Shown here: positions 47,888 to 63,190 of the stretch, in pieces | Layout: each line of letters starts with the position of its first letter | Numbering within the stretch: position 1 is the stretch's first letter | Source: Thermobifida cellulosilytica TB100 | Lineage (GTDB): Bacteria > Actinomycetota > Actinomycetes > Streptosporangiales > Streptosporangiaceae | DNA length: 64,000 nt | Direction of reading: 5' to 3' | NCBI RefSeq assembly: GCF_001517975.1 | Contig: NZ_KQ950181.1 | Coordinates: forward strand, 527,500-591,499 | Translations under genes and position numbers: made by a program | The notes under the pieces: model-generated | Told to the model about the DNA's origin: nothing | What the model saw: only the letters and a program-made list of their open reading frames with translations | The model's database searches: none

Positions 47888-48796
47888 GTGACTGAACAGA
47901 CCGCCCCGATCTCCCCCGAGTCCGACGCCCTGCTGCTGCGCCGCCTGGCCGCCGCGGGACTGGACGGGGTGCGCACGCTGCGGCCCGTCCGCAGCGGCAC
48001 GATGGCCGTCGCGTGCCTCGCCGAGCTCGCCGACGGCACCCGGGCCTTCGTCAAGACGCTGGCCGAGCCGCCCGGGGACGACCTGTTCGAGGCCGAGGCC
48101 GAAGGACTGGCGGCCCTGCGCGACCTCGGCGGCGTCGCCACCCCCGAGGTGCTGCTGGCCACCTCCGACCTGCTGGTGCTGCGGGCGCTGCACCCCCGCC
48201 CCGACACCCCGGGCTTCTGGGAGCGGCTCGGGCACGCCGTGGCCGCCCTGCACACCGCCACCGTCCACGACCGCTTCGGCTGGCACCGCGACAACTGGCT
48301 CGGCCGCAAGCGCCAGTACAACCCGTGGCACACCGACGGCCACGAGTTCTACGCCCGGTACCGCATCCTGCGCTGGCTGGACGAGCCGCTCGTGGCCGAC
48401 GCCCTCGACCGGGAGGACCGCCGCGCGGTGGAGCGGCTGTGCGCCCGCCTGCCCGAGGTCGTCCCGGCCGCCCCCGCCTGCCTGACCCACGGCGACCTGT
48501 GGACCGCCAATGTCGTCTCCGGAAGCGGCGGGGAACCGGTCCTCGTCGACCCGGCGGTCTCCTACAACTGGCCGGAGACCGACCTCAGCATGCTGTGGAA
48601 CACTCACCGCCCGCCCGAGTCCGACCGCTTCTTCGACGCCTACACCGAGGCCGCCCGCCCCGAGCCGGGCTGGCAGGAGCGGCTGCCCGTGCTGCACCTG
48701 CGCCAACTGCTGTGCCTGATCGCCCACGGTTACCCCGACCGGACGCTGGTCGAGCAGGTACGCCGGGTGGTCGCGCCGTTCCGGCGACGCGGCTGA
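47888..48796 (+). CDS. Fructosamine kinase family protein
   Basis: 302-aa kinase-fold protein. Family motifs are ADGTRAFVKTLAEPP (ATP-binding Lys), GWHRDNWLGRKRQYN (Asn-rich fructosamine-kinase signature), the catalytic loop CLTHGDLWTANVV and the metal Asp in PVLVDPAVSYNWPETDLSML. Members phosphorylate ketosamines on glycated proteins or small glycated amines, leading to deglycation. The GTG follows CGGAG with seven bases between. Cytoplasmic; the gene stands alone amid decayed sequence. Confidence 0.92.
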   Translation: MTEQTAPISPESDALLLRRLAAAGLDGVRTLRPVRSGTMAVACLAELADGTRAFVKTLAEPPGDDLFEAEAEGLAALRDLGGVATPEVLLATSDLLVLRALHPRPDTPGFWERLGHAVAALHTATVHDRFGWHRDNWLGRKRQYNPWHTDGHEFYARYRILRWLDEPLVADALDREDRRAVERLCARLPEVVPAAPACLTHGDLWTANVVSGSGGEPVLVDPAVSYNWPETDLSMLWNTHRPPESDRFFDAYTEAARPEPGWQERLPVLHLRQLLCLIAHGYPDRTLVEQVRRVVAPFRRRG

Positions 48797-48889
48797 GCCC
48801 CGGCGGCGGTGCGGGGGCCGGGAACGTCCCCGCACCGCCCCGCCACGACCTGACGCCGGTGAGTGTCCTTGTGTGCACGGAACGTTGAT

Positions 48890-48911
48890 TTTTGTTCGTT
48901 TGGAGACAAAA
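48890..48911. promoter_or_regulatory. TTTTGT-N10-ACAAAA inverted repeat before the GH31 remnant
   Basis: A 6-bp inverted repeat in an AT-rich patch 40-60 bases before the remnant's ATG. It may be the old operator of the alpha-xylosidase gene. Nothing else is seen in the 153-base gap. Confidence 0.3.
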
Positions 48912-48949
48912 CTGACCGGGAGTGTCGTCCGTGCCCCGCAAGGAGCGTC

Positions 48950-49678
48950 ATGCTTGACCGGCCCCCCAGGGTCCCCCACGAGCGCTTCGTCGCCGACCCT
49001 CCGGCCCTGCCCGTGCCCGCACCCGGCGACAGCAGTCCCGCCACCGCCGCCCCCGCCGTCACCGACGATCCCATCGTCGTGGCCAGCGGCCCGCTGCGCG
49101 CCCGCATCGGCCTCGACCCCTGGCACCTGGGCTTCCACAACGGCCCCGGCCGCCCGCTCACCGAACAGGACCGCGGCCACGTCGACATCAGCGGACGCTG
49201 CCGCACCCTGCCGTTGGTCGGCAGCACCGTCGAGGGCACCGCCGCCTCCCACGGTCGTTCGTCCTGGCCGCCGACGAGCGCCCCGTCGGACGCGGCGCAC
49301 GCTTCACCCCCTTCGAGCTGCGCGGGCGGCGCGTCCGCATGGGGAACTTCGACGCCTTCGGCGCCGAGTCCGACCGCGCCTGCACGAACGTGCCGCCGTA
49401 CCTGTCCAGCCGCGGCTGCGGACCGCCGCTCGACACCGGCAGCCCCGCCGACCACCACCGTCCCCGACGGCCCGTTCTCCCCGGTCACCCCGGTCAGATG
49501 GGGCGGCCTGGGACGGCGCACCGTCCTCACCGACGTCGACGGCGACACCGTCGTCACCGCCGTCCGCGAAGGCGACACCCTGCGCGTCACCGTGGACGGC
49601 CCGGCCTCCGTCACCGGTGCCGAGAGCGTGCCCGTGCCCGGACTCACCCCTCCCGAGCACGTGGGACTGCACCGCTGA
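48950..49678 (+). pseudogene. GH31 alpha-xylosidase remnant with catalytic domain deleted
   Basis: ATG 48950 follows AGGAG. The N-terminal beta-sandwich of YicI-like GH31 enzymes is recognisable: VVASGPLRARIGLDPWHLGF and RPLTEQDRGHVDISGRCRTL in the first frame; then, after a frameshift near 49255, FTPFELRGRRVRMGNFDAFG and AESDRACTNVPPYLSSRGCG. From about 49450 the first frame returns with a tail like a GH31 C-terminal domain (RRTVLTDVDGDTVVTAVREG) and ends at 49678. The whole TIM barrel with its catalytic Asp pair, about 400 residues, is missing. An intact enzyme would remove xylose from xyloglucan oligosaccharides made by the downstream xyloglucanase. Confidence 0.8.
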
Positions 49679-49742
49679 AGGCGGCCGACCCGTGCCCGGG
49701 GCGGTCCCGGGCAGGCTCCACCCCCCACACCAGGAGCATGAC

Positions 49743-52502
49743 GTGACACCAACCGACCAACGAGCACCACTCCCGCCGATCCCCCGGAGCAGACGCGGCG
49801 TCCTCTCCCGCGCCCTGTCCTGCCTGGCCACCGCGGCCACCGTGGCCGCGCTCGGCGCCGTCCTCCACCCCGCCGCCCCGGCCGCGGCCGACACCGGCTA
49901 CACCTGGGGCAACGTCGAGATCGTCGGCGGCGGCTTCGTCCCCGGCATCGTCTTCAACCAGAGCGAACCCGACCTCATCTACGCGCGCACCGACATCGGC
50001 GGCGCCTACCGCTGGAACCCCGACACCGAGCGGTGGATCCCGCTGCTGGACCACGTCGGCTGGGACGACTGGGGCCACAGCGGCGTCGTCAGCATCGCCA
50101 CCGACCCGGTCGACACCGACCGGGTGTACGCGGCCGTGGGCACCTACACCAACGACTGGGACCCCAACAACGGCGCGATCAAACGCTCCACCGACCGCGG
50201 GCGGACCTGGCAGACCACCGAACTGCCGTTCAAACTGGGCGGCAACATGCCCGGCCGCGGCATGGGCGAACGGCTGGCCGTCGACCCCAACGACAACAGC
50301 GTGCTGTACTTCGGCGCGCCCAGCGGCCACGGCCTGTGGAAGAGCACCGACCACGGCGCGACCTGGAACGAGGTCACCAACTTCCCCAACCCGGGCAACT
50401 ACGCCGCCGACCCCTCCGACGTCGGCGGCTACCAGGGCGACAACCAGGGCGTGGTGTGGGTGACCTTCGACCCCTCCAGCGCCTCCCCCGGCCAGGTCAC
50501 CCAGGACATCTACGTCGGGGTCGCCGACAAGGACAACACCGTCTACCGCTCCACCGACGGCGGCGCCACCTGGGAGCGCATCCCCGGCCAGCCCACCGGC
50601 TTCCTGGCGCAGAAGGGCGTGTTCGACCACGTCAACGGGCTGCTCTACATCGCCACCAGCGACACCGGAGGCCCCTACGACGGCTCCGACGGAGAGGTGT
50701 GGCGCTACGACGCCGCCACCGGCGCCTGGACCGACATCACCCCGGCCGACCCCGACGGCTTCGAGTACGGCTTCAGCGGCCTGACCATCGACCGGCAGAA
50801 CCCCGACACGATCATGGTGGTCAGCCAGATCCTGTGGTGGCCCGACATCCAGGTGTGGCGCTCCACCGACCGCGGCGCCACCTGGAGCCGCATCTGGGAG
50901 TTCAGCGGCTACCCCAACCGCACCCTGCGCTACGACCACGACATCTCCGGGGCGCCGTGGCTGCACTTCAACAACCCGGACCGGCCCCCCGAGGTCAGTC
51001 CCAAGCTCGGTTGGATGACGCAGGCGTTCGAGATCGACCCGTTCGACTCCGACCGCGTGCTGTACGGCACCGGCGCCACCGTCTACGGCAGCGACAACCT
51101 CACCGACTGGGACTCCGGCGGCACCGTCCACATCAAGGTCCGCGCCCAGGGCATCGAGGAGACCGCGGTGCAGGACCTCGCCGCGCCGCCCGGCGCCACC
51201 GAGCTGGTCTCCGCGCTGGGCGACATCGGCGGGTTCGTGCACGAGGACATCGACGTCGTCCCCGACGCGATGTTCGACACGCCCTTCCACGGCACCACCC
51301 GCAGCATCGACTTCGCCGAACTGGCCCCCGCCACCATGGCCCGGGTCGGTGAGGCCGTCTCCGGCGAGGTCGACTCCCACATCGGCATCTCCACCGACGG
51401 CGGGTCGAGCTGGTGGGCCGGACAGCAGCCCCCCGGGGTCACCGGGCCGGGCACCGTGGCGGTGAACGCCGACGGCTCACGGATCGTGTGGAGCCCCGAC
51501 GGCACGGGCGTGCACTACTCCACCACGCTCGGCTCGTCGTGGACCGCCTCGACCGGCGTGCCCGCCGGGGCGCGCGTGGAGGCCGACCGGGTCGACCCGG
51601 ACAAGTTCTACGCCTTCGCGAACGGCACGTTCTACACCAGCACCGACGGCGGTGCGACGTTCACCGAGTCCGCGGCCACCGGCCTGCCCGCCCGGGGCAA
51701 CGTCCGCTTCGCCGCGGTGCCCGGCCACGAGGGCGACATCTGGCTGGCCGGCGGCGAGGCCAACAGCACCTACGGCATGTGGCGCTCCACCGACTCCGGG
51801 GCCACCTTCACCCGCCTCGGCGACGTGGACGAGGGCGACGTGGTCGGCTTCGGCAAGCCCGCCCCCGGCAAGAGCTACCCGGCCGTCTACACCTCGTCCA
51901 AGATCAACGGGGTGCGGGGCATCTTCCGCTCCGATGACGCCGGGCAGACCTGGGTGCGCATCAACGACGACCAGCACCAGTGGGCCTGGACCGGCGCGGC
52001 CATCACCGGCGACCCCGACGTCTACGGCCGCGTCTACATCGGCACCAACGGCCGCGGCGTCGTCGTCGGCGACCTGACCGGCCAGCCCGGCGAGGAACCC
52101 GAGGAGCCGGAGGAGCCCGAGGAACCCGAAGAACCCGAGGAACCCGAGGAACCCGAAGAGCCCGAGGAGCCCGAGGGCCCCGGCGAGGACGCCTCCTGCG
52201 CGGTCTCCTACCAGGTCGTCAACCAGTGGGGCAACGGCTTCCAGGGCGAGGTGACGATCACCAACACCGGTGACAGCGCGATCAGCGGCTGGGAGCTGAA
52301 GTGGACCTTCCCCGGCGACCAGCAGATCGCACACGCGTGGAACACCCAGCTCACCCAGACCGGAGCGGACGTGACCGCCCGCGACGCGGGCTGGAACAGC
52401 ACCATCGCCCCCGGCGGCACCGCGAGCTTCGGATTCCTCGGCTCCACCGCCCCGGGCACGGCTCCCAGCGAGTTCACCCTCAACGGCGAGTCCTGCTCCT
52501 GA
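49743..52502 (+). CDS. xeg74: Secreted GH74 xyloglucanase with CBM2
   Basis: 919-aa enzyme that cuts the glucan backbone of xyloglucan outside the cell. Signal peptide about 1-48 with Arg pairs (RSRRGVLSRALS); two seven-blade propellers about 52-780; the catalytic Asp residues are in ARTDIGGAYRW and ALGDIGGFVHE; recurring STDGGATW-type turns mark the blades. A linker with nine EEP units joins CBM2 (about 816-919, SCAVSYQVVNQWGNGFQGEV). GTG follows AGGAG with seven bases between. Layout equals Xeg74 of T. fusca. Two terminator hairpins follow. Confidence 0.95.
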   Translation: MTPTDQRAPLPPIPRSRRGVLSRALSCLATAATVAALGAVLHPAAPAAADTGYTWGNVEIVGGGFVPGIVFNQSEPDLIYARTDIGGAYRWNPDTERWIPLLDHVGWDDWGHSGVVSIATDPVDTDRVYAAVGTYTNDWDPNNGAIKRSTDRGRTWQTTELPFKLGGNMPGRGMGERLAVDPNDNSVLYFGAPSGHGLWKSTDHGATWNEVTNFPNPGNYAADPSDVGGYQGDNQGVVWVTFDPSSASPGQVTQDIYVGVADKDNTVYRSTDGGATWERIPGQPTGFLAQKGVFDHVNGLLYIATSDTGGPYDGSDGEVWRYDAATGAWTDITPADPDGFEYGFSGLTIDRQNPDTIMVVSQILWWPDIQVWRSTDRGATWSRIWEFSGYPNRTLRYDHDISGAPWLHFNNPDRPPEVSPKLGWMTQAFEIDPFDSDRVLYGTGATVYGSDNLTDWDSGGTVHIKVRAQGIEETAVQDLAAPPGATELVSALGDIGGFVHEDIDVVPDAMFDTPFHGTTRSIDFAELAPATMARVGEAVSGEVDSHIGISTDGGSSWWAGQQPPGVTGPGTVAVNADGSRIVWSPDGTGVHYSTTLGSSWTASTGVPAGARVEADRVDPDKFYAFANGTFYTSTDGGATFTESAATGLPARGNVRFAAVPGHEGDIWLAGGEANSTYGMWRSTDSGATFTRLGDVDEGDVVGFGKPAPGKSYPAVYTSSKINGVRGIFRSDDAGQTWVRINDDQHQWAWTGAAITGDPDVYGRVYIGTNGRGVVVGDLTGQPGEEPEEPEEPEEPEEPEEPEEPEEPEEPEGPGEDASCAVSYQVVNQWGNGFQGEVTITNTGDSAISGWELKWTFPGDQQIAHAWNTQLTQTGADVTARDAGWNSTIAPGGTASFGFLGSTAPGTAPSEFTLNGESCS
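52092..52172 (+). repeat. Nine tandem Glu-Glu-Pro codon repeats (linker)
   Basis: The 9-base unit coding Glu-Glu-Pro occurs nine times in a row with synonymous variation (GAG/GAA, CCC/CCG). It makes a stiff, acidic linker between propeller and CBM2. Such repeats vary in number between strains. Confidence 0.9.
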
Positions 52503-52508
52503 CCCTGA

Positions 52509-52542
52509 CTCCCGGCCCGCCCCGCCCGGGTCGGGCCGGGAG
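52509..52542 (+). terminator. Terminator hairpin after xeg74
   Basis: An 11-bp perfect stem (CTCCCGGCCCG with CGGGCCGGGAG) and 12-base loop, seven bases after the stop. Confidence 0.65.
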
Positions 52543-52561
52543 CCGCCCCGACCACCCGGAC

Positions 52562-52597
52562 CTGCGGCCCGCACTCTGCCCCCGGTGCGGGCCGCAG
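52562..52597. terminator. Second hairpin between convergent xeg74 and the polyketide synthase gene
   Basis: A 12-bp perfect stem (CTGCGGCCCGCA with TGCGGGCCGCAG) and 12-base loop. It can serve the minus-strand polyketide synthase gene, which ends at 52709. Confidence 0.65.
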
Positions 52598-52708
52598 CCC
52601 TGTCCGGGCCCGTGCGGCGGGCCGCACCGGAGCGGGTACGCCGCGGCACGGGAGCGGAACGGCCCCGCGCCGACAGGGCACGGGGCCGGGGGACCGGGAT
52701 GCCCCGGG

Positions 52709-55642
52709 TCAGGCGGCGGGCACGCCGCGGCAGTGGTCGATGATGGCCTCGGCGAGCCGGGTGATGCTGACGGAGGGGTCGAACAGCAGCCGCACCCCGA
52801 AGTTCGACAGAGCCGGATGCGCCTCGTGGAAGAGGTCGCGCAGCCCGATCATCGCGACCGAGGACAGGCCCATGTCGATCGGGGAGCGCTCCGCGTCCAC
52901 CTCCTGGGGGGTGATGCCCACGGTGTCGGCGACCAGGTGCACCAGGGCCTCCAGGACCGCGGCCGGGTCGGGCTCCGGCGCGGCGAGGGCCTCGGCCAGC
53001 GTGGGGGCGGCCGCGGTGGCGTCGGACAACTGGCCGTGGTCCCAGCGCACCGGCAGCCGCACCGGGGAGCGCACCGGCTCGGGCCAGCGGGCGGGGGAGC
53101 GGCCGCGCAGGTGCAGGGCGGCCAGTTGGTCCAGCAGCGCGGCGTGGTCGCCGCGGTCGGCGTCGCCCGCGGCCACCACGGCCGCGTCCGTGCCCGCAGC
53201 GGCCAGGACCGCGGTGGCGGGACGGCCCAGGGTGGAGCGTCCGCCCAGCTCCAGCACTGTCGCACCGTCGTCCACCGCCCGCGCCAGGGCGTCGGTGAAG
53301 CGCACGGGCGAGCGCAACTGCCGCGCCCAGTAGGCGGCGTCCAGTGCTGCGCCGTCGACCACGGCGGCCTCGGCCGTGGAGCAGAAGACCACGTCGCTGC
53401 TGCGGGGGGCGATGCCGTCCAGGGCGGCGGCCAGGCGCCCGGTGAGCGGGGCCACGCTGGGGGAGTGGGCGGGCACGTCGTTGGGCACGCGGCGGGCGAA
53501 CACCCCCCGGGCCTCCAGGGCGGCGCGCAGCTCCTCCAAGGGCTCCTCGGGGCCGCTGAGCACAGTGGTGTCGGGGGCGTTGTAGGCCGCCGCCACCAGC
53601 GTGCCGACCAGGCCGTGCTCGGCGATGACCTCCTCTGCGCGCTCGGCGGTCAGGTCGGTGACCAGCAGGCCTCCCACCGGTTCGAGCTCGGCCAGCAGGG
53701 CGCTGCGCGCGGCCACCACCCGGGCGGCGTCGTCCAGGGACAGGGCGCCGGCGGCGTGGGCGGCGGCCACCTCGCCCAGGGAGTGGCCGATGACCACGTC
53801 GGGGGTGTGCCCCCAGTGCCGCCAGGTCGCGGCCTGGGCGACCTGGGTGAGCCAGATGGCGTGCTGGGCGGTCTCGAAGTCGGGGATCGGCTCGCCCGGA
53901 CGCCACGGCTGCCGTCCCAGGTGCGCGGCCAGGGCCGCGCGCGCCTCCTCCATCGCCTCGCGGAACACCGGCAGTTCGGCGTGGCAGGCGCGGGCCATGG
54001 CGGCGTGCTGGGAGCCCTGCCCGGCGAACATCCACACCAACCGCCCCGGTTTGGGGGGTGCGGCGGCCGGGCCGACCAGGGCGGGGTGGGAGCGGCCCGC
54101 GCCCAGGGCCAGCAGGGCCGCGGCGGCCTGCTGCGGGTGCTCGACGACGACGGCGGCGCGCACCGGGTGGTGGTCGCGGCGGTGCTGCGCGGTCGAGGCC
54201 ACCCGGCCCAGGTCGGTGCTGTCGGCCAGGACCGGCGCCCACGCCTGGGCGAGGTCGCGCAGCCGGGCCTCCGACAGCGCGCTGAGGGGGACGAGGCGCG
54301 GGCGGGCGGCCGTGCCGTCCTCCTCCTCGGGCGCGGGTTCGGGGGCCTGCTCCAGGACGATGTGGATGTTGGAGCCGCCCAGTCCGAAGGCGCTCACCCC
54401 CGCGGTGCGCGGCCGTCCGGTCTGCGGCCACGGCTCCGGCTCGGTGGGCACCCGCAGCGGGAGCCGCCTGAGGGTGGAGCGGAGCGTCTCGTGGCACGCG
54501 GTGGGCGGGATGGTGGCGTGGTACACGGCCAGCGCGGCCGCGATCACCCCGACCACGCCGGAGGCCCCCTCGGTGTGGCCGACCAGGGACTTGACCGAGC
54601 CGATGGCCAGCGGCCCCTCGCGGCCCGGGGTGAGGACGCGGGCCAGGGCGCGGCCCTCGGAGGAGTCCCCGGCCTTGGTGCCGGTGCCGTGGCACTGCAC
54701 GTAGTCGACGTGGGCGGGGTCCATGCCCGCGTCGGCGTAGGCGTCCTTCAGCAGGTCCCGGTGGACCGACGGGTTGGGGGCGTACAGGCCCGCGGGCGAG
54801 TAGCCGTCGCAGTTGGCGGCCGAGCCGCGGACGAGCGCGTAGACGCGGTCGCGGGACTCCTGCGCGTCGTCCAGGCGGCGCAGCACGAGGACCGCGGTCG
54901 CCTCGGCGCGCACGTATCCCTCGCCGTCCTCGTCGAAGGGGCGGCACATCCCGTCGGCGGCGATCACCCCGCCGTCGACGAAGCCCGCGGTGATGCCGGA
55001 GAACTGCATGAGGTTGACGCCGATGACGATGGCGGTGTCGACCTCTCCCAGGAGCAGGGACTGGCGGGCCAGGTGCAGGGCGGTTCCCGAGGCGGAGCAG
55101 GCGGTGTCGACGTTCATGGACGGCCCGCGCAGGTCGAGGTGGTAGGAGACGCGGTTGGCCAGCATCGCCATGGCTGCCCCGGCCATGGTCGTCATCCGCT
55201 GGAACCGTCCGGGCTGTAGGGTCATCAGCCCCTGGTCGAAGCAGGCCGATCCGCTCCACACCCCGGTCCGGCTCCCGGCCAGCGAGGAGGGGGGAAGACC
55301 CGCGTCGTTCAGCGCCTCGACGACGACTTCCAGGATCATGCGCTGCTGCGGGTCGAGCTGTGCGGCTTCATGGGCGGGGATGGAGAACGCCTGGTGGTCG
55401 AAGGCCTCGATGTCGTCGATCGTCCCGGCGGTCCACGGCTGTTCCGGGCGCTGGTCGGGGTGAAGCTGCGAGCGCATCCGTTCCCAGCGTTCGCCCGGGA
55501 TCGGGGAGAGGACGGACTCGCCCTTGACCATGGCGTCCCACAGGGCGGTGGGGGAGTCGATGCCCCCGGGCAGTCGGCATCCGATACCGGTGATCGCGAT
55601 GAGCGGTCGTGACGGACGGGGGGACTGACTGTTTTCAGGCAC
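52709..55642 (-). CDS. Single-module type I polyketide synthase, KS-AT-ACP
   Basis: 977-aa PKS. KS about 12-440 with active Cys182 in NVDTACSASGTAL and His318 (CHGTGTKAGD) and His356 (KSLVGHTEG); the context SASG replaces the usual SSSL. AT about 530-830 with GQGSQ, Ser621 in GHSLGEV and catalytic His726; the specificity motif is VPAHS instead of HAFHS (malonyl) or YASHS (methylmalonyl). ACP about 890-965 with probable phosphopantetheine Ser928 in DMGLSSV. There is no KR, DH, ER, loading module or thioesterase. All catalytic residues needed for one condensation are present. GTG follows GAGG with seven bases between. Methyltransferase and monooxygenase genes lie upstream on the same strand. 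Product unknown. Confidence 0.93.
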   Translation of the reverse strand: MPENSQSPRPSRPLIAITGIGCRLPGGIDSPTALWDAMVKGESVLSPIPGERWERMRSQLHPDQRPEQPWTAGTIDDIEAFDHQAFSIPAHEAAQLDPQQRMILEVVVEALNDAGLPPSSLAGSRTGVWSGSACFDQGLMTLQPGRFQRMTTMAGAAMAMLANRVSYHLDLRGPSMNVDTACSASGTALHLARQSLLLGEVDTAIVIGVNLMQFSGITAGFVDGGVIAADGMCRPFDEDGEGYVRAEATAVLVLRRLDDAQESRDRVYALVRGSAANCDGYSPAGLYAPNPSVHRDLLKDAYADAGMDPAHVDYVQCHGTGTKAGDSSEGRALARVLTPGREGPLAIGSVKSLVGHTEGASGVVGVIAAALAVYHATIPPTACHETLRSTLRRLPLRVPTEPEPWPQTGRPRTAGVSAFGLGGSNIHIVLEQAPEPAPEEEDGTAARPRLVPLSALSEARLRDLAQAWAPVLADSTDLGRVASTAQHRRDHHPVRAAVVVEHPQQAAAALLALGAGRSHPALVGPAAAPPKPGRLVWMFAGQGSQHAAMARACHAELPVFREAMEEARAALAAHLGRQPWRPGEPIPDFETAQHAIWLTQVAQAATWRHWGHTPDVVIGHSLGEVAAAHAAGALSLDDAARVVAARSALLAELEPVGGLLVTDLTAERAEEVIAEHGLVGTLVAAAYNAPDTTVLSGPEEPLEELRAALEARGVFARRVPNDVPAHSPSVAPLTGRLAAALDGIAPRSSDVVFCSTAEAAVVDGAALDAAYWARQLRSPVRFTDALARAVDDGATVLELGGRSTLGRPATAVLAAAGTDAAVVAAGDADRGDHAALLDQLAALHLRGRSPARWPEPVRSPVRLPVRWDHGQLSDATAAAPTLAEALAAPEPDPAAVLEALVHLVADTVGITPQEVDAERSPIDMGLSSVAMIGLRDLFHEAHPALSNFGVRLLFDPSVSITRLAEAIIDHCRGVPAA

Positions 55643-55654
55643 GACAAAACCTCG

Positions 55655-55662
55655 TCACGTGA
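55655..55662. promoter_or_regulatory. TCACGTGA palindrome before the PKS gene
   Basis: An 8-bp palindrome 13 bases upstream of the PKS start codon, partly over the ribosome-site region. It could be an operator, but the motif is short. Confidence 0.25.
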
Positions 55663-55747
55663 ACGGTTGTGCAGAGACCTGGACGGAAGTGACGTGTGGT
55701 GGTGCTTGGAGTGAGGAGCCGGGGGACGAGTCCGCGGTGTGTGGGCA

Positions 55748-55780
55748 GGGGCGGCCGGCGGTGCGGAAGTCGGCCGCCCC
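55748..55780 (-). terminator. Hairpin just after the methyltransferase gene
   Basis: A 10-bp perfect stem (GGGGCGGCCG with CGGCCGCCCC) and 13-base loop, nine bases after the methyltransferase stop on the minus strand. It suggests the PKS gene downstream has its own promoter in the remaining 105 bases. Confidence 0.55.
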
Positions 55781-55788
55781 GACGTCTG

Positions 55789-56454
55789 CTACTTGGTCGC
55801 CACCCACACGCCCACGGTGCCGACCACCTGGAAGTCGACCGTGGAGAAGTGCTTCTCCAGGACCTTCCTCAGGTCCTCCGGCGAGTCGCCGAGGTTGCAG
55901 AAGGTGTTCTCCTGGCTGTTGTAGAGGTCGAGGAGCCTGCGCGCCAGGGCGTTGATGCGCAGCTCGTCGCCCTTGCCGAGAACGGTGCAGCCGAAGAAGC
56001 GGCCGCCGGGCTTGAGGGCGCGGGCCGCCTCGGCCATCAGCGGCTCCTTGTCCCACATGTCCTTGCCGCGCACGGTGTGCAGCATCATGTGGGAGTCGAC
56101 CGAGTCGAGGCTCTCCGGCTCCACCGGCCACGGCTTGAGGGCGTCCTGCTCGGTGGTGCGGATGTCGAACCGGCCGCTGAGGCGCTTGCGGGTGATCTCC
56201 AGGCAGGCCGGGTTGAGGTCGAGCAGGTGCAGGGTGCGCAGCGGGGTGTCCTTGGGGAGTTTGCTCAGGAAGTAGCCGTTGCCCGGGCCGACGGTCAGGT
56301 GGGACGGGCCGACGTTGTCGCGGTGGTTGCGGTGCAGGAGGCTGTTGGGGACCTGCCATGCGAAGGCGTGGCTGAACCAGATGACACCGGCGGTGTAGCC
56401 CTTGCTCATCCACCAGTGGCTGTACAGCTTGCTGTTCGCCTTGTTTTCGGTCAA
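55789..56454 (-). CDS. SAM-dependent methyltransferase of the PKS locus
   Basis: 221-aa class I methyltransferase. SAM motif I is LTVGPGNGYFLSKL (Gly-Pro-Gly-Asn-Gly instead of the common GxGxG), motif II acid is in LHLLDLNPACLEIT, the DSVDSHMMLHTVR stretch is motif IV, and LKPGGRFFGC is the post-motif strand. The N-terminal NSKLYSHWWMSKGYTAGV is rich in aromatic residues and may form the substrate lid. The acceptor is probably the polyketide or its oxidised form (inference from position). TTG at 56454 is used because GAGG lies seven bases upstream; the ATG four bases earlier gives only Met-Ser-stop. Confidence 0.88.
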   Translation of the reverse strand: MTENKANSKLYSHWWMSKGYTAGVIWFSHAFAWQVPNSLLHRNHRDNVGPSHLTVGPGNGYFLSKLPKDTPLRTLHLLDLNPACLEITRKRLSGRFDIRTTEQDALKPWPVEPESLDSVDSHMMLHTVRGKDMWDKEPLMAEAARALKPGGRFFGCTVLGKGDELRINALARRLLDLYNSQENTFCNLGDSPEDLRKVLEKHFSTVDFQVVGTVGVWVATK

Positions 56455-56484
56455 GACATAACCTCTTCTTGGTGGGGGAAAACC

Positions 56485-56501
56485 ATCGAGTGGGACTCGA
56501 T
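56485..56501. promoter_or_regulatory. ATCGAGT-N3-ACTCGAT inverted repeat in the methyltransferase leader
   Basis: A 7-bp perfect inverted repeat 31 bases upstream of the TTG start; an operator or a small hairpin near the ribosome site. Confidence 0.35.
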
Positions 56502-56565
56502 CGGGGGAGCGAGGTCATGGGCGGCCGAGAAGCGCCTCCCACCAGGGAAGACGCAGGCGCGCGCG

Positions 56566-56608
56566 AAAAACCGGATGCGGTTCCCGCGAGGATCCGCATC
56601 CGGTTTTT
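56566..56608. terminator. Bidirectional intrinsic terminator inside the methyltransferase 5-prime region
   Basis: A 15-bp perfect inverted repeat AAAAACCGGATGCGG ... CCGCATCCGGTTTTT with a 13-base loop gives U5 tracts on both strands. It is a textbook intrinsic terminator, yet lies about 110 bases in front of the methyltransferase start, so it may attenuate that gene if the promoter is in the AT-rich patch at 56609-56695. Confidence 0.75.
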
Positions 56609-56700
56609 CACATAATCCATGACTCAGAACTTTACCAATGATTGGCTTTTGTGCCATAAGGGACAAATTTGACTTTTCTCATGGTTTACCCGTGAGAAAA

Positions 56701-56740
56701 CGGGGCCGCTCCGGTTTCGGCCGATACCGGAGCGGCCCCG
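56701..56740 (-). terminator. Terminator of the monooxygenase gene
   Basis: A 14-bp perfect stem (CGGGGCCGCTCCGG with CCGGAGCGGCCCCG) and 12-base loop, followed on the minus strand by TTTTCTC. It starts 15 bases after the monooxygenase stop. Confidence 0.8.
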
Positions 56741-56755
56741 GGAGAACGGTCCCGC

Positions 56756-58051
56756 TCAGCTTCCGGCCCTGGCGGCGACCTCGGCGATGTAGTCCCGCGC
56801 GGCCTGCGGGTCGAACATCCACCGCTCGTAGTCGGCCGGGTCGTTGAAGCCGCTGATCCACCGGTCGGCGACCTCCGGGTAGCGCACGACCGCCCCGATC
56901 AGGTCGTTGAAGTGGGGCGGCAGCGTCCCCCGCCAGAAGTTGTGCACCATGCCGGCCAGGACCGCACTGTGGCGCCCCCGCTCCTGGTAGAACTTGTCGA
57001 ACGCGTTCTCCATGAACTCCGCGTCGAACGGCTTGCCCGAGTGGGCGCGCTCGGCGATCGCGTCTGCGTAGACCTGGGCGCAGAAGGTCGAGTTCGCCCA
57101 GCCCTGCCCGGTGATCGGGTCGGAGGTGACGACCACGTCGGCCATGCCCAGCATGGGGACGCCGTCGAGGAAGGCGACCGGCTTGCGCACCATCGGGGTG
57201 AACTTCGAGTACGTGATGTCCTTGGCGCCGCCCACCAGGTCGTCGACCCCCAGGTGGGCGATGCGCTCGTAGACCTCGGGCAGGTGCTCGCGCAGCAGGG
57301 TCTGCATCCCCGCCAGCAGCGGCCCAGGGCTGCGGCCGGCCATCCCCCCGGCGTCCAGCGAACCGCCCGGGGTGCTCAGCATCGTCACACTGGTCGCCTC
57401 GCCCTGGGAGGTCAGGAACGGGGTCAGGAACACCTCGCCGTGGGGGGAGGTGTAGACGTCGAGCTGCCGGTCGCCCTCCCAGGCGACCCCGTCGAGGATC
57501 GCCTGGACCATCACCCGCTCGTGCGCGCCGGAGAAGCGGCTCCGGTCGACGTGGAACAGGTCGCCGAGCTGGTCGGCGCCCACGGCCACCACCACCAGGT
57601 CGTACATCCTGATGTAGTACTTGAGGTCGGCCAGGGTGGCGGTCTGGATGTGGACCTTGGCGCCCTTGTCCTCCAGGTACTCCAACCAGTCGGCCATCTT
57701 GATGCGCCGGTCCACGCTGACCGCGTGCTCGCCGATCCGCTCACCGATGGGGGAGGCGCCCAGACGCCCGGAGAAGCGGAAGACGTCCCCCTGCGGGGGG
57801 ATCATCGACAGGCGGACCCGTTCGAACCGCGGTGCCTGTTCCCGCCACAGGTCCAGCCCGGCCTGCTCCTCCAGGGCCCGCGTGGACGGGGCGGCGAACT
57901 GGGTGACCGAGGCCGGACTCTCCCGGATCTCCAGGGAGGTCTGGTTGGTGATCAACTCGACCCGGAAGCCCAGGTCGAGCAGACGGTGTCCGAGGAAGAG
58001 GCCGGACTGTCCGGCCCCGACGATCAGCACCCGGGGTGACAAGGGGGGCAT
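56756..58051 (-). CDS. Styrene-monooxygenase-like FAD-dependent oxygenase
   Basis: 431-aa single-domain flavoprotein monooxygenase. The FAD motif is VLIVGAGQSGLFLGHRLLDL, an inner strand DLVVVAVGADQLGDLF follows, and the second FAD contact region is LGMADVVVTSDPITGQGWAN. The overall pattern (PASVTQFAAPSTRALEEQAG near residue 55, and GQGWAN followed by a long helical C-terminus) is that of StyA/indole monooxygenases, which epoxidise aryl alkenes using FADH2 from a partner reductase. No reductase gene is next to it. ATG at 58051 follows GGAG with nine bases between. It probably modifies the product of the PKS locus. Confidence 0.85.
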   Translation of the reverse strand: MPPLSPRVLIVGAGQSGLFLGHRLLDLGFRVELITNQTSLEIRESPASVTQFAAPSTRALEEQAGLDLWREQAPRFERVRLSMIPPQGDVFRFSGRLGASPIGERIGEHAVSVDRRIKMADWLEYLEDKGAKVHIQTATLADLKYYIRMYDLVVVAVGADQLGDLFHVDRSRFSGAHERVMVQAILDGVAWEGDRQLDVYTSPHGEVFLTPFLTSQGEATSVTMLSTPGGSLDAGGMAGRSPGPLLAGMQTLLREHLPEVYERIAHLGVDDLVGGAKDITYSKFTPMVRKPVAFLDGVPMLGMADVVVTSDPITGQGWANSTFCAQVYADAIAERAHSGKPFDAEFMENAFDKFYQERGRHSAVLAGMVHNFWRGTLPPHFNDLIGAVVRYPEVADRWISGFNDPADYERWMFDPQAARDYIAEVAARAGS

Positions 58052-58084
58052 GTGAACGGTCTCCAAAACACAGGACGGTTGTGG

Positions 58085-58105
58085 AACCCCTGTGTCCCAG
58101 GGGTT
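58085..58105. promoter_or_regulatory. AACCCCTG-N5-CAGGGGTT operator-like repeat in the divergent region
   Basis: An 8-bp perfect inverted repeat in the 196-base space between the divergent monooxygenase and DUF742 genes, about 35 bases before the monooxygenase start. Candidate binding site for the regulator of the locus. Confidence 0.45.
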
Positions 58106-58247
58106 TGAGGGATACCCCGGGATGATTTCAGATTCCTTGGGGGGCCGCATCCGGATCCCCCGGCGTTCGGCCTGCGCGCCCCGGGTTGAACGCCCCGTCC
58201 GATGCGGCAACACTATGGACGGCTCGCCCCCTCCCGGAGGAACCCCC

Positions 58248-59042
58248 GTGACCGTCCCCGCCAGCAGCCTCCGCCCCCTCCTGGGCCTTCCCGCCCGCTG
58301 GTCCCAGCGCCCCCTGCGGCACACCGAGACCCTGCGCCTGACCGAGACCACCGACGCCCTCGGGCGCGCGGTCACCCACGCGCACTCCCTGTGCCCCAGC
58401 CCCGCCACCCCCGCCGTCGTCGCCCGACTGCACCGCGGCCCCGCGGTACTGGCCGAGATCGCGGCCGAGACCGGCCTGCCCCTCGGCCTGGTCGCCAAGG
58501 TCTGCCAGGACCTGGCCGAGGCCGGGCTGGTCGGGATCGACCCCGACCACGACCGCAGCGGAGCCCGCAAGATCGTGGTCGTCGCGGCCACCCTGGAACG
58601 GGAACGCGCCTTCGTCGCCGCGCTCACCGGGGACCGGGGAGCCCTGCTGTGCATGGACTACCCGGCGGACCCGCACACGCCCGTCACCGTGGAGCTCGCC
58701 GTCAGCCGGGCCGTGCACCGCCCCGACTGGCCCGTCCCGCTGTGCCTGATGGGCAGCCCCCGCGGCGTGGACAGCACGGCGCTGTGGTCCGAGGCGCTGC
58801 GCGACGCCGCGGCGCTGGTCCTGCTGCTCGGCCCCGACTGCGAGCAGGCCGTGGCCAACGCGCTCGCCCACGCGCCCGACCGCCTGGACCGTGTGGCGGC
58901 CGTGGACCTCCCCCAGGTCCCCGACCGGGTCTGGGCGCGGCTGCGTGAGGCGGGCGTCCTGACCGGTCCCGACGGGATCTGGTCGGCCGCCGACCCCCGC
59001 CTGCCGGAGGCCGTCGCCCGGATCGCCGCGACCCGGGGGTGA
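58248..59042 (+). CDS. DUF742 domain fused to a P-loop-less GTPase-like domain
   Basis: 264 aa. Residues about 15-105 match DUF742 (winged-helix-like), ending LAEIAAETGLPLGLVAKVCQ and DLAEAGLVGI. Residues about 110-260 follow the order of the small GTPase found in actinobacterial conservons: RKIVVVAATLERERAFVAAL at the P-loop place but without GxxGxGKT, and LCLMGSPRGVDSTALW at the place of the usual FGTPGQDRFWFMW. It is thus probably a fused CvnC-CvnD-like protein with a dead GTPase part. The GTG follows GGAGGA. A weak promoter (TTGAAC 58186, CACTAT 58211) lies upstream. Divergent from the monooxygenase gene. Confidence 0.7.
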   Translation: MTVPASSLRPLLGLPARWSQRPLRHTETLRLTETTDALGRAVTHAHSLCPSPATPAVVARLHRGPAVLAEIAAETGLPLGLVAKVCQDLAEAGLVGIDPDHDRSGARKIVVVAATLERERAFVAALTGDRGALLCMDYPADPHTPVTVELAVSRAVHRPDWPVPLCLMGSPRGVDSTALWSEALRDAAALVLLLGPDCEQAVANALAHAPDRLDRVAAVDLPQVPDRVWARLREAGVLTGPDGIWSAADPRLPEAVARIAATRG

Positions 59043-59076
59043 GGGGCGTCCCGGGACGCCGGAGAGCGCGCCCCGT

Positions 59077-59730
59077 TCACTCCAGTCCGGCGTCGTGGGC
59101 GAGCAGGGCCAGCTGGGTGCGGTTGTCCAGGGCGAGTTTGGCCAGAACGGTCGAGACGTGGGCCTTGACCGTGGCCACGCTCAACAGCAGTTCCGCGGCG
59201 ATCTCGGCGTTGCTGAGGCCCCGGGCCACCGCCAGCGCCACCTCGTACTCGCGGGGGCTGAGGGCGGCCAGCGCGGTCCGCGCCCGCCGACGGGACTCGG
59301 CGTGCACGGCCACCCGGTCCATGAGGCGGCGGGCGACCCGGGGAGACAGCACCGGCTCCCCGTCGGCGGCCCGGCGGACGGCCTCCGCGATCCGTGGCGG
59401 CGGAGTGTCCTTGAGCAGGTAGCCGCTGGCCCCGGCGCGCAGCGCGCGCAGGATGTCGTCGTCGGAGTCGAAGGTGGTCAGCACGACGACCTCGGGCGGA
59501 CGGGGAGTACCGCGCAGCCTGCGGGTGGCGGCGACGCCGTCCACCCCCGGCATCCGCAGGTCCATGAGCACCACGTCGGGAAAGTGGGTGCCGGCGAGCG
59601 CGACCGCCTCCTCGCCGTCGGCGGCCTCGCCCACCACGGCGATGCCCTCGGCGCCGTCGAGCATCATCGCCAGTCCCGTGCGCACGAGCGCGTCGTCGTC
59701 GACGATCAGCACCCGCAGCGGACGGCTCAC
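59077..59730 (-). CDS. NarL/LuxR family response regulator
   Basis: 217 aa. Receiver domain about 1-120 with the acidic pair in [10 protein letters not shown], phospho-acceptor Asp in [14 protein letters not shown] and the Lys in YLLKDTPP. LuxR-type helix-turn-helix about 148-210: [35 protein letters not shown] at 59730 overlaps the kinase stop in GTGA; ATG at 59739 is an alternative. It is the partner of the interrupted upstream kinase; without that kinase it may be fed by others or act unphosphorylated. Confidence 0.92.
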
Positions 59731-60878
59731 GCAGGCCATGCTAGCCGGGCGCACAGCCGGAACTCCCCCGAGAAGGTCCCGTGGTCCAGCTGTCCGCCGC
59801 ACAGGCGCACCCGTTCGGTCAGGCCGACCAGGCCGGTGCCGCTGCCGGGGACGGCCTGCGGCACGTCCCCGGCGACGATCCGGTTGCGCACCTCCAGCAC
59901 CAGGTGCTGCCCGGGCCGTCCCGCCAGCACCAGCCGCACCGGCTGGCCGGGAGCGTGCTTGCGGGCGTTGGTCAGCCCCTCCTGCAGCACACGGTAGGCG
60001 GTGCGGACCACCGAGGCGGGCAGCGTCTCCGGCTCGACCGTCCTGTCGCTGAACACCACCTGCGCCCCGGCGGCGCGGGACTCCTCGACCAACCCGGCCA
60101 GATCGGCCCAGACCGGGGCCGGCCCCGCCGCGCCGTCGGAGTCCCGCAGCAGGCCGATGACCTCACGGAGCTCCTCCAGTGCCTGGTGGGCACCGGCGCG
60201 CACCACCCCCGCGGCGTGCGCCAGCTTCTCCGGCGCCGAGTCGGGGCGCTACTCCAGCGCACCCGCGTAGGTGGCGAGCAGGGACAGCCGGTGCGCCAGC
60301 ACGTCGTGCATCTCGCGGGCCAGGCGGGTGCGTTCCAGCATCCGCGCCTCGGCCACCCGCCGCCCCTGCTCGGCCTCGGCGCGGCGGGCCCGCTCCCGCA
60401 GCGCCCAGGCCAGCGCGCGGTGGGTCCGCAGCAGCACCCCCCAGCCGACCAGCGCGCTGTAGCCGACCGCCACCAGCGCCAGCCACCAGCCCAGGGAGAC
60501 GTCCTCGTGCGGTCGCCACACCCCCTGCGCGGCGTGTGCCGCGACGCCCGCCGCGGCCGCGACCGGCAGGCTGCGCCGCTGCGCGACCAGGAGCACGCCC
60601 AGCGAAGCCGCCGGGGTGAGGGACACCGACAGGGTCGCCGCCGCGGTGAGCCCGAGCGTGCCCGCCAGCGGGTACCGCAGCAGCAGCGGCACGGCCAGAC
60701 CACCCAGCACCGCCAGTACCAGGTCGAGCAGCAGCAGGCCCTCGGCGGGAGCGGTGGCGTGGCGCGCCCAGGCCGCCAGCGCCGCCAACGCGGCCACCCC
60801 GGCGGCCGCGCCGAGCGCGCGGGGAAGGGGGACGCGTCGCTGTGCGGGCCCCGATCCGTCGGGGAGCAGGTCGGTCAC
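59727..60878 (-). pseudogene. DesK-type sensor histidine kinase interrupted by an in-frame amber codon
   Basis: The full frame would give about 382 residues: five or six hydrophobic helices (about 20-150), HisKA_3 with REMHDVLAHRLSLLATYAG, and an ATPase domain (YRVLQEGLTNARKHAPG, GSGTGLVGLTERV). A TAG at 60249-60251 follows AGALE, where relatives have Tyr (LEYRPD); the bases after it continue in the same frame with RPDSAPEKLAHAAGVVRAG. A single change from TAC or TAT explains it. The front part would keep the His but lose the ATP site. GTG at 60878 has the leaderless-type TACCCT box. Confidence 0.85.
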
Positions 60879-60884
60879 CCGGAA

Positions 60885-60890
60885 AGGGTA
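60885..60890 (-). promoter_or_regulatory. -10 box TACCCT, leaderless promoter of the kinase gene
   Basis: TACCCT, six bases, GTG; same box and spacing as the S4-domain gene. The promoter seems intact though the gene is interrupted. Confidence 0.5.
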
Positions 60891-61053
60891 AGCCCCGCGC
60901 GGTCGGCGCCGCCTCCCACCGGGGGAGGGGCCGCCCCCGACCAAAGTCGGGGGCGGCCTGGCCGCGCGGCCGACGCGGGCTTTACGCCGGCGCGGCGACG
61001 CTGGGGGAGCCGGGCGGACCGTCCGTCCGGCTCCGATGAGGGGAGCAGGACCC

Positions 61054-61476
61054 ATGTCGACGCAGAACACGCGACCGCGGCGTGCGACGGGCGGCACGGC
61101 CGTGCGGCGGGGGGTGACGGTGGTCGCCGCGACGGCCGCCGCGCTGGCGGTGTGGGGGCTGGCGGTCGTGGTGGCCGGGGTCGACCTGTCCGTCCGCACT
61201 GGCGCGACGGTCCAGCAGGTGGGGGCGGGGGCGGTGGCCGTCGCGAGCCTGGCCGCCGCGTTGGCGGCCTGGGCGCTGCTCGCGCTGTTGGAACGGTTCC
61301 TGCGGCGGCCGCGGCGGGTCTGGACGGGGATCGCCGTCGCGGTGGGCGCGGTGTCGCTGCTCGGGCCGCTGGGCGCGGTCAACACCGCGGCCCTGGTGGT
61401 GCTGGTGGCGCTGCACCTGGTGGTCGCCGTGGTGCTCGTGGCCGGCCTGGCCCCTTCGGCCGGGACGCGCGGGTGA
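61054..61476 (+). CDS. DUF6069-like four-helix membrane protein
   Basis: 140-aa membrane protein with four hydrophobic helices (about 25-48, 60-85, 95-112, 115-135) and a short Arg-rich start. The pattern, with a LLALLERFLRRPRRVWTG turn between helices two and three, is that of DUF6069 proteins of actinobacteria. Function unknown. The ATG follows GGGGAGCAGGA. Its stop overlaps the GTG of the hydrolase remnant in GTGA. Confidence 0.7.
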   Translation: MSTQNTRPRRATGGTAVRRGVTVVAATAAALAVWGLAVVVAGVDLSVRTGATVQQVGAGAVAVASLAAALAAWALLALLERFLRRPRRVWTGIAVAVGAVSLLGPLGAVNTAALVVLVALHLVVAVVLVAGLAPSAGTRG

Positions 61477-62609
61477 GCGTGCCCGTCGGCTACCTGGCCA
61501 CCGTGGTACTCGCCGCGTGGTGCACGGGGGTCGCCCTGGCCGCGCCGGCCCGGCCCCGCGTGCCCGCCGCCGTCGCCTTCTGGTCGGGCTGCTGCTCAAC
61601 GAGCAGCCGTTCCTCGCGCTGGTCTGGCTGTCGGCCGCGACCGCGCCGGCCTTCGCCCAGGGCGACGTCGCCTCACCCGCCGCCTGGGCGGCCGTCGCCC
61701 TGGCCACCGCGACCGCGCTGGGACTCGTGCTCCTGGCACGGCGGGGTCTGCGCGCCAGGCCCGTCCTGGACCGGGCCCTGGCCGAAGGGTTCGGCGCGCC
61801 CGTGCGCACCCCCGCGCCCCGGCGGCGCGACCTCCTGCGGACCCTGCTCGTGCCGCTGCCGGTGCGGCCCCGCGGCGTCGAACGGATCGCGGACACCCCC
61901 TACGGGGACGCGGGCAGACGCCACCTGCTCGACGTCTACCGGCACCGCTCCCGGCCCGGGGGCCGCCCCGCGCTGGTGTACCTGCACGGCGGCGGGTACA
62001 CCGGCGGAGGCAAGGACCGTGAGGCGCGTGCCCTGCTCCACCGGGTCGCCGCGCGGGGGCGGGTGTGCGTCAGCGCGAACGACCGGCTGCGTCCCGGGGC
62101 GGGCCTCGCCGAGCACCTGGCCGACGCCGGGCAGGTGCTCGCCTGGGTGCGCGAACACGGTGCGGCCCACGGCGCGGACGGGGACACGGTGGTGGTGGCA
62201 GGCAGCTCCGCGGGCGCCCACCCGGCCGCGCTGCTCGCCCTCACCGCCGAGAAGCCCCGCCCACCGGTCCGCTGCGGCGGACACCGGACCCCCGGTGGCC
62301 GCCGCCGTGTGCCTGTACGGCTACTTCGGCGCCTACTACGGGATGAGCGGGGCCGAGACCTCGCCGACGGCGCGGGTCCACGCCGGCGCGCCGCCGTTCC
62401 TCGTGGTCCACGGCGACCACGACACGCTGGTGCCCGCGGCGGACGCCCGCCGCTTCGTCTCGGCGCTGCGGCAGGCCTCGGCCGCCCCGGTCTGCCACGC
62501 GGAGCTGCCGGGGGCGCAGCACTCCTTCGACGTGCTCCGCTCCGTGCGCTTCGACGCGGTCGAGGTCTTCGCCGCCCGGGTGGCCGAGACGGGCGGAGGC
62601 GGCCGGTAG
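61473..62609 (+). pseudogene. Alpha/beta hydrolase gene with two frameshifts
   Basis: GTG 61473 starts SVPVGYLATVVLAAWCTGVA. Near 61588 coding moves to another frame, as if one C were lost from GGGCCTGCTGCTCAAC, and continues with LLLNEQPFLALVWLSAATAP, the oxyanion motif LVYLHGGGYTGGGKD and the nucleophile VVVAGSSAGAHPAALLALT. Near 62265 the first frame returns with AAAVCLYGYFGAYYG, the Asp in LVVHGDHDTLVP and the His in LPGAQHSFDVL, ending at 62609. The catalytic triad is all there, so the two indels offset each other around an otherwise sound esterase/lipase-like protein of about 375 aa with N-terminal membrane helices. Confidence 0.8.
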
Positions 62610-62783
62610 CCGTCGCGCTGCCGAGCCGGAGGGGCGGTGCGACCGTCCACCGCGGGGGCCGCGGCGGTCGGGGCCGCGGCGGGGTTCGGGGAACCGCGGA
62701 GGCCCCGGGCCGGTACGGCTGTCCCCCGGCCCGGGGAAGCCCGTCGGGAACGGACCCTCTCGTGTGCGCGGGAAGGGGCGGCA

Positions 62784-63190
62784 GTGGTCGTACGGAGGCC
62801 TGTCTGCCAGGCCGTGGCGTGGTTCTCGCCCCTGTTCACGCTTCTTCCCGGGACCGCGATGGGAACGGAGGCCCGGTCTCCGGGGCAGGTGTTCCTCGGC
62901 TCCGGGACGTTCGGCGGACTCCCGGCCGCTCTCTGGCCGCCGGGGTGGTACTCCCGGGTCCGACTCGACGAGCGGGGCGTCGTGGTCGTCGACGGCTTCT
63001 TCCACAGCACGGCCCCGTGGCGGCACGTGGAGCCGGTGGAGCGCAACGGCGCCTTCGCCGTCCGGCCCGCCTCGGGGGAGGAGGCGGGCTCGGTGCAGCA
63101 CGGGGGATCGCTGACCGGCTCCCCCACCCACCGCCGGCCGGTGCGGACCGCACGAGGGCTCCTCGAACGCTCCCGCTCCTCCCCTAAACC
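62784..63190 (+). pseudogene. Worn PH-like membrane protein gene
   Basis: From GTG 62784 the frame reads RRPVCQAVAWFSPLFTLLPG, then PGQVFLGSGTFGGLPAALW and WYSRVRLDERGVVVVDGFFH followed by WRHVEPVE, a pattern like the N-terminal helices plus PH-like domain of small actinobacterial membrane proteins. It then runs past HGGSLTG with no stop before the end of the window, which is not natural for this family and suggests a lost stop or a frameshift near 63130. Boundaries are approximate. Confidence 0.4.

Follow-up and report, generated by a model that had tools for sequence, protein, structure and literature searches.

A 64,000-nucleotide stretch of Thermobifida cellulosilytica TB100 (contig NZ_KQ950181.1, positions 527,500 to 591,499), hereafter the window, encodes on its minus strand a polyketide synthase (PKS), a methyltransferase (MT) and a flavin monooxygenase (FMO) related to the styrene monooxygenase StyA. 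These three genes are called the trio, and a further gene diverges from the FMO. The locus is tentatively read, at close to an even chance, as a conservon-derived, self-regulated metabolite operon that would make a small methylated, oxidised polyketide. The product is perhaps a nocapyrone-like pyrone. Judged from sequence comparison, the divergent gene descends from a conservon, joins CvnC to CvnD and has lost the P-loop, and a 12-bp motif is paired with this putative fused regulator. An earlier note on this DNA had described a compact PKS locus. Its three minus-strand genes were confirmed, but the locus is more than a compact PKS cluster, because the FMO adjoins conservon genes in most relatives and the divergent neighbour is itself conservon-derived. 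The features are as follows.

52709-55642, minus strand: single-module non-reducing type I PKS, ketosynthase-acyltransferase-acyl carrier protein (KS-AT-ACP), 977 amino acids (aa), GTG start; Pfam and family alignment
54350-55600, minus strand: KS domain, residues about 15-431; Pfam ketoacyl-synt and Ketoacyl-synt_C, end from NCBIfam KS matches
53102-54037, minus strand: AT domain, residues 536-847; Pfam Acyl_transf_1, 179 bits
52709-52975, minus strand: ACP region, about residues 890-977, limits approximate, phosphopantetheine Ser928; family alignment
55789-56454, minus strand: class I S-adenosylmethionine (SAM) MT, 221 aa, probable O-methyltransferase (presumed target); Methyltransf_11, 46 bits, and family alignment
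56756-58051, minus strand: flavin adenine dinucleotide (FAD) FMO of the StyA/indole-monooxygenase type, or conservon accessory protein, 431 aa; Smoa_sbd, 58.7 bits
58121-58132, minus strand: 12-bp intergenic motif TCTGARATCATC, candidate operator or promoter element; alignment of five gaps
58248-59042, plus strand: fused CvnC-CvnD-like protein, divergent from the FMO; hhalign and AlphaFold2 (AF2) model
58407-58541, plus strand: CvnC (DUF742)-like helix-turn-helix/winged-helix part, residues 54-98; hhalign and AF2 models
58557-59039, plus strand: CvnD-like pseudo-G domain, residues 104-264; hhalign, VIA, no G-x4-GK[ST]

The divergent fused candidate regulator and its intergenic motif

The fused gene is separated from the FMO gene by a 196-bp gap (58052-58247). 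By hhalign, the profile of the fused family was matched to canonical CvnD (98.4%, E 6.7e-15, 164 columns) and to canonical CvnC (95%, E 1.8e-8, 38 columns). The AF2 model (pLDDT 81, pTM 0.80) showed a small G-protein fold at about residues 97-264. The best Foldseek match of the model was MglA 3t1o (E 2.9e-4), and VIA aligned it with MglA 6h17 (Z 12.2, rmsd 3.7, 153 residues), with similar Z for other G proteins. No P-loop of the form G-x4-GK[ST] was found in the fused window protein. The P-loop was retained in only 5 of 22 trio-linked CvnD-like proteins, whereas 11 of the 12 from other StyA loci have it, StyA standing here and below for the FMO family.

The N-terminal part was modelled with helices and a strand, as in a winged helix, and it gave weak MarR/IclR-like Pfam matches below the cut-off. 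DUF742 was matched at E<=0.01 in 7 of 8 fused family members (best 4.3e-10). Weak Foldseek matches of the winged-helix part included TFE-alpha and winged-helix regulators, and also GATOR1/KICSTOR chains.

In positions 46000-64000 of the window, no match to the CvnA model reached 25 bits; CvnA is present in L059, L099, and most loci where StyA stands with a large PKS. CvnB had no match near the window trio, and the eight roadblock genes of the genome are all on other contigs. The locus is therefore conservon-derived and not a conservon, i.e., it is without CvnA, CvnB and the P-loop. On these alignments, the conservon of the window is reduced to one divergent gene in which CvnC is fused to a P-loop-less CvnD fold.

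The motif TCTGARATCATC is the single conserved run in five aligned gaps, i.e., those of all loci with the divergent fused regulator, and it is exact in the window, L054, L055, L056, and L057. In L055 and L056 the site reads GATCTGAGATC, an inverted repeat; the repeat of the window is imperfect. Across 53 loci (2.05 Mb, both strands) there are five exact copies of the motif, accounted for by the five gaps, and a single copy with one mismatch. None of the 48 other StyA loci had it within 900 bp upstream of StyA at up to one mismatch. The 4.43-Mb genome of the window holds one copy, and a reversed control gave none. When three diverged gaps were shuffled 1000 times with dinucleotides preserved, no shuffle shared such a 13-mer. 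Positions 52400-59100 gave no match when scanned for promoter and terminator consensus sequences.

Behind the fused regulator, a LuxR-type response regulator gene and a histidine-kinase-like gene were observed (59077-61400). They were left out of the unit; the response regulator (59077-59739) is in place in L054, the closest relative, but a similar gene of L056 lies elsewhere.

The StyA-like monooxygenase beside conservon genes

Conservons, or actinobacterial G-protein systems (AGPS), typically number 5-10 per large actinomycete genome (PMC13343842). Their typical, optional accessory genes code for a P450 (CvnE) or a GAF protein (CvnF) and occur when CvnA is without a sensor domain (PMC13343842; PMC8510531).

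By gene clustering of 61 loci, four families were found to recur upstream of StyA. Three were recognized by Pfam as HATPase, roadblock/LC7, and DUF742, and the fourth, of 193 aa, often carries a GGFGAGKT P-loop. By order and size, the four families are assigned to the conservon genes CvnA, CvnB, CvnC, and CvnD; for the 193-aa family, the assignment to CvnD rests on order, size, the P-loop and the G-protein fold of the fused relative. With family models derived from the same loci in which they were counted, StyA had a Cvn gene no more than 3 kb away in 23 of the 31 trio loci, in 10 of the 12 loci with StyA and a large PKS, and in 6 of the 10 other StyA loci. The density of Cvn matches near StyA was 47 times that of the outer flanks by the same models.

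Pfam Robl_LC7 was used as an independent check in 20 genomes, with 150 of 169 roadblock matches used. At least 22 of 50 StyA matches had a roadblock gene no more than 6 kb away, where 0.9 would be expected; this difference overstates the significance, as relatives are not independent. Five of the 22 positives were of the trio type, the window not being among them, and the others were StyA genes with large PKSs or alone.

In a class sample, StyA matches (E<=1e-60) occurred in 66 of 296 genomes. Eleven of these loci were fetched. In seven of them StyA is placed directly behind CvnA-B-C-D (3/3 of family f18 and 4/4 of family f17), and in four it is not. The seven conservon-linked loci, i.e., L155-L159, L164, and L165, have no trio, and the P-loop is retained in all seven of their CvnD proteins. 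In L160, one of the other four, a flavin-reductase-like gene was seen by eye behind StyA. The genome of the window has a second StyA-like gene, directly behind a full conservon (L144, 8536-10339).

Two side observations concern the same neighbourhood. In a related genome, three tandem StyA-like genes are placed about 1-4 kb from a roadblock gene (G001:C1:3827669-3831415). In L073 and L111, P450 genes (cluster 10, by eye, possibly CvnE) stand upstream of the StyA-MT-PKS trio, and therefore both conservon accessory types may co-occur.

Co-divergence was compared by Mantel analysis of the 22 trio loci with a CvnD-like gene, which is not a reconciled phylogeny and in which the PKS of L068 is cut by a contig end. 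The distance-matrix correlations with CvnD were 0.71 for StyA, 0.61 for MT and 0.52 for PKS, and those among the trio were 0.74 (MT-StyA), 0.73 (PKS-StyA), and 0.79 (MT-PKS). Given PKS, the partial correlations were 0.57 for CvnD-StyA and 0.38 for StyA-MT. Given StyA, they were 0.00 for CvnD-PKS, 0.16 for CvnD-MT, and 0.55 for MT-PKS. The FMO has therefore diverged together with the G protein, and the PKS together with the MT. In L064-L066, the PKS is about 64% identical to that of the window and StyA about 40%. In a StyA tree of 65 rows, the window groups with L054-L058.

The FMO has the StyA substrate-binding domain, i.e., Smoa_sbd at 58.7 bits against a Pfam cut-off of 25, and in this part the earlier description as a StyA-like flavoprotein holds. 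It misses the NCBIfam StyA equivalog cut-off (133 bits vs 550). By phmmer against PDB chains, it is nearer to 7z97/7z4x (8e-48), which we take to be the indole monooxygenase VpIndA1, than to StyA 3ihm (only 2e-18), and 9lrq scored 1e-50. The family profile gave E 1e-100 for 7z97, 7e-101 for 9lrq_A, and 5e-50 for 3ihm. Full-length homology, the FAD glycine motif and the DPxxGQG motif are shared with StyA/VpIndA1-type enzymes, whereas the score below the NCBIfam cut-off, the lack of a reductase neighbour, and the conservon-derived and PKS neighbours are different. By a PF01613 search of the genome, no flavin reductase partner is encoded in the window; two such genes were found, both outside it. 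The chain 9lrq_A is deposited under 'Alanine-phosphoribitol ligase' and is by sequence a close StyA/indole-monooxygenase relative, so this name may hide the FMO family in annotations.

The polyketide synthase, the methyltransferase and the trio in relatives

In the window PKS, Pfam recognized the KS (240 and 126 bits) and the AT (179 bits), and no reductive domain and no thioesterase (TE) were matched in the domain scan. Among 12 aligned family members, the KS residues Cys182, His318, and His356, the AT residues Ser621 (GHSLGE) and His726 (PAHS), and the ACP residues Gly925 and Ser928 were invariant in all. The ACP of the window is under the Pfam limit, and Pfam PP-binding was matched in 6 of 12 scanned family members. 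On family alignment for the ACP, and not by a Pfam match in the window, the protein is a KS-AT-ACP PKS without ketoreductase (KR), dehydratase (DH), enoylreductase (ER) or TE. The lone non-reducing PKS proposed earlier is thus borne out by Pfam and the invariant catalytic residues.

The residue motifs that the earlier note had singled out did not stand as distinguishing marks. The KS context TACSASG was one of them, and TACSAS is found in 11 of 35 KSs of the family, most of the remaining being TACSSS or TSCSSS. The AT motif VPAHS was another, and PAHS is the family norm (31/35). The standard glycine motif of class I MTs is GxGxG, and GPGNG of the window MT, which had been called atypical, conforms to it. 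The oddness of GPGNG, TACSASG, and VPAHS as a sign of novelty was rejected, since all are ordinary within the family.

A trio locus was defined as StyA, MT and a KS-AT-ACP protein of 850-1100 aa. With the window included, 31 such loci were found, in 24 genomes out of the 250 that were sampled from the GTDB family of the window; this is a lower bound, as the loci were chosen from search listings and biased to good matches. MT matches (E<=1e-20) occurred in 32 of the 250 genomes. The earlier note had hung its proposal on co-occurrence of the three genes in relatives; they do co-occur, and since they recur together in 31 loci the grouping is not chance. The trio is on one strand in 30 of 31 loci, and in 27 the order is StyA-MT-PKS. 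In 24 of these 27 the MT and PKS reading frames overlap, by the starts chosen. In the genus of the window, the FMO is present in three of four genomes (its own included), and the FMOs of the other two are 72 and 93% identical to that of the window. Several genomes have more than one trio, i.e., three in G003 and two each in G044, G010, G074, G026, and G192.

A separate scan by named genomes covered 19 loci, mostly of genomes already in the family sample. Complete trios were found in Actinorugispora endophytica (two), Nocardiopsis ansamitocini, Marinitenerispora sediminis, N. metallicus, Murinocardiopsis flavida, Nocardiopsis sp. CNT312, N. xinjiangensis, N. kunsanensis, and Streptomonospora alba. 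Marinactinospora thermotolerans also has a complete trio, with the PKS on the opposite strand. With the two narrow patterns used, no N. alba locus was among the 19.

The set is split in four genomes, with StyA-MT in L103, L105, L108, and L109 and the KS-AT-ACP in L104, L106, L107, and L110. A 118-aa PKS-like stretch remains behind the MT in L105. In L104 (G108:C13), the KS-AT-ACP, without adjoining StyA or MT, was observed beside a complete CvnA-B-C-D, the StyA-MT pair being elsewhere in the genome. Larger PKSs also stand behind StyA, i.e., a KS-AT-ACP followed by KS-AT-DH and an ER start in L088, where the end of the locus cuts the gene, and KS-AT-DH-ER-KR-ACP in L063 and L123.

In other families of the class sample, an MT match was found in 12 genomes; loci of 11 of these were fetched (L164-L174), and by these models none had a trio. 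PKS pieces were seen nearby in L166. In L164 and L165 (f17), an MT-family gene is placed on the opposite strand about 6 and 10 kb from the conservon-linked StyA, without a KS-AT-ACP. Behind the trio PKS of L066, L073, and L111, a further gene resembling SAM methyltransferases was observed (cluster 11, about 264 aa). MT relatives of 34-37% identity are also present in marine proteobacterial metagenome-assembled genomes (L135, L136, and L140, i.e., Rhodospirillales, Pelagibius, and Arenicella), with no StyA or PKS match in these loci.

Around the window locus, glycoside-hydrolase-like genes and sugar transporters were seen by eye (24516-25907, 27658-30531, 43898-45481, 49842-52502), and these surroundings look like those of a plant-biomass degrader. 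The genome has a second type I PKS (1909 aa as called) immediately followed by a 149-aa YbgC/FadM-like thioesterase (L143, G000:C2:335001-355000, 10068-16239), presumably resembling an iterative, enediyne-type PKS/thioesterase pair.

Proposed function and alternative readings

In the proposed mechanism, the CvnC-CvnD fusion would bind the 12-bp motif through its winged helix, and the bound fusion would set the expression of the StyA-MT-PKS operon and of its own gene. The PKS would take an acyl starter from fatty-acid metabolism and extend it once or twice without reduction. Because no TE is present, the chain would be released from the ACP by lactonisation, and the simplest product would be a 4-hydroxy-2-pyrone. 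Both ring closure and a hydrolase in trans are plausible ways of release. The MT would convert the enol to a methyl ether, and oxidation of the precursor or the product would fall to the FMO, served by a flavin reductase in trans. The product or the redox state of the FMO may feed back on the regulator.

Several points weigh against this reading. The presence of the motif in the five gaps is by construction, as it was found by aligning them, and the independent tests are its uniqueness and the shuffles. DUF742 scored 20.6 in the window against a Pfam cut-off of 27, and the winged-helix part alone had no Foldseek match at E<=0.001 (best E 0.17). In known conservons, CvnC proteins are described as apparent GTPase modulators rather than as DNA binders (PMC13343842). 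By the family models, 8 of 31 trio loci are without a Cvn gene within 3 kb, and in L058, one of the eight, an AsnC/Lrp-like regulator was seen by eye upstream. On the StyA tree, where L068, L103, L105, L108, and L109 were counted as trio since StyA adjoins MT, the trio label needs four changes, at least two of them on well-supported branches; the link to PKS and MT was therefore gained or lost repeatedly.

A less likely alternative is an ordinary small specialised-metabolite cluster of the nocapyrone type. Its KS-AT-ACP would act iteratively, the MT would be a pyrone O-methyltransferase and the FMO a tailoring enzyme, and its pathway-specific regulator would happen to descend from a conservon. 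The nocapyrones of Nocardiopsis alba were assigned to the locus ncpA-D (PMC4110758), and for this locus 'an unusual polyketide synthase' and an MT doing the predicted reaction on the native pyrone are described (PMC8155685). Trios are present in Nocardiopsis species and in Marinactinospora thermotolerans, and precedents for conservons as cluster regulators are fkmR1-R4, proposed for frankiamicin (PMC4383371), and Cvn8 of a lanthipeptide cluster (PMC13343842). However, the divergence of the FMO follows CvnD and not the PKS, and the FMO adjoins conservons in the seven trio-less loci of the class scan, neither of which is expected of a mere tailoring enzyme. The same facts favour another reading, in itself rather unlikely, in which the FMO is a conservon accessory or sensor, i.e., a flavin counterpart of the CvnE P450s, and MT-PKS is a separate small pathway in the same operon. 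StyA lies right behind CvnD in L155-L159, L164, L165, and L144, none with a trio, and the partial correlation with CvnD is 0.57 for StyA versus 0.00 for PKS. CvnE and CvnF likewise go with CvnA proteins that have no sensor domain (PMC13343842). However, the StyA-MT correlation persists given PKS (0.38), StyA stays with MT in the split loci L103, L105, L108, and L109 while the full PKS is elsewhere, and an MT-family gene lies near StyA in L164 and L165; the last two hint at shared chemistry.

It is very improbable that the FMO is a catabolic or detoxifying styrene or indole oxygenase with unrelated neighbours. Its resemblance to that oxygenase family would fit, but the window is without a flavin reductase, unlike L160, and the FMO is linked to MT and PKS in 31 loci. 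A catabolic locus was rejected on the missing reductase and the conserved PKS linkage. A further reading, distinctly unlikely as a whole, takes the locus for a self-contained signalling unit, in which PKS, MT and FMO would make a polyketide hormone and its receptor would be the CvnC-CvnD fusion turned into a one-component transcription factor. The Ras-like fusion would then have swapped its GTP pocket for ligand sensing, and the winged helix would give the regulator.

The conservon-derived, self-regulated metabolite operon preferred here was compared with known systems. As in conservons, a CvnC (DUF742)- and CvnD (Ras/MglA-like)-related protein is encoded beside the operon, and in relatives the same FMO follows CvnB/CvnC/CvnD or the full CvnABCD. 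The window differs in having neither CvnA nor CvnB, in the fusion of C and D and the lost P-loop, and in its linked genes, which are FMO, MT and PKS and not a P450 or GAF protein. The frankiamicin cluster (fkm) of Frankia, reported in 2015, has a complete conservon inside, fkmR1-R4, beside a polyketide pathway and proposed as its regulator, and its authors knew no other example (PMC4383371). It differs in its type II PKS and four-gene conservon, and the available text mentions no pairing of an FMO with CvnD and no P-loop-less fusion (PMC4383371). Cvn8 represses an adjacent lanthipeptide cluster (PMC13343842). From these two cases, a conservon that regulates a pathway is not new as an idea. The nocapyrone locus ncpA-D is likened by its available description only, as a small locus with an unusual PKS and a pyrone MT in a related genus. 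In Bacillus subtilis, BpsA and BpsB, a pyrone synthase and an MT, yield pyrone methyl ethers (PMC4901931). They are a precedent for how the pair may work only, as BpsA is a type III PKS without ACP, and no FMO or G-protein genes are mentioned in the available text (PMC4901931).

In the open-licence PMC literature, no paper was found that connects a conservon to a StyA-like protein or to this trio, or that places a styrene monooxygenase, a type I PKS and a methyltransferase in one biosynthetic gene cluster. Three features are apparently new: the pairing of a StyA-like FMO with conservons, the addition of the MT and KS-AT-ACP to this FMO, and the CvnC-CvnD fusion that lacks a P-loop, together with the 12-bp site.

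How conservons sense and which targets they control is largely open, and the StyA-like FMO would be a widespread further accessory. The PKS-MT pair joined to the FMO operon gives a concrete metabolite to seek, and the 12-bp site a testable target. The locus may also give a genomic handle on orphan pyrone-type chemistry. If the reading is true, a P-loop-less Ras fold joined to a winged helix would plainly illustrate how a G-protein switch can turn into a regulator of transcription.

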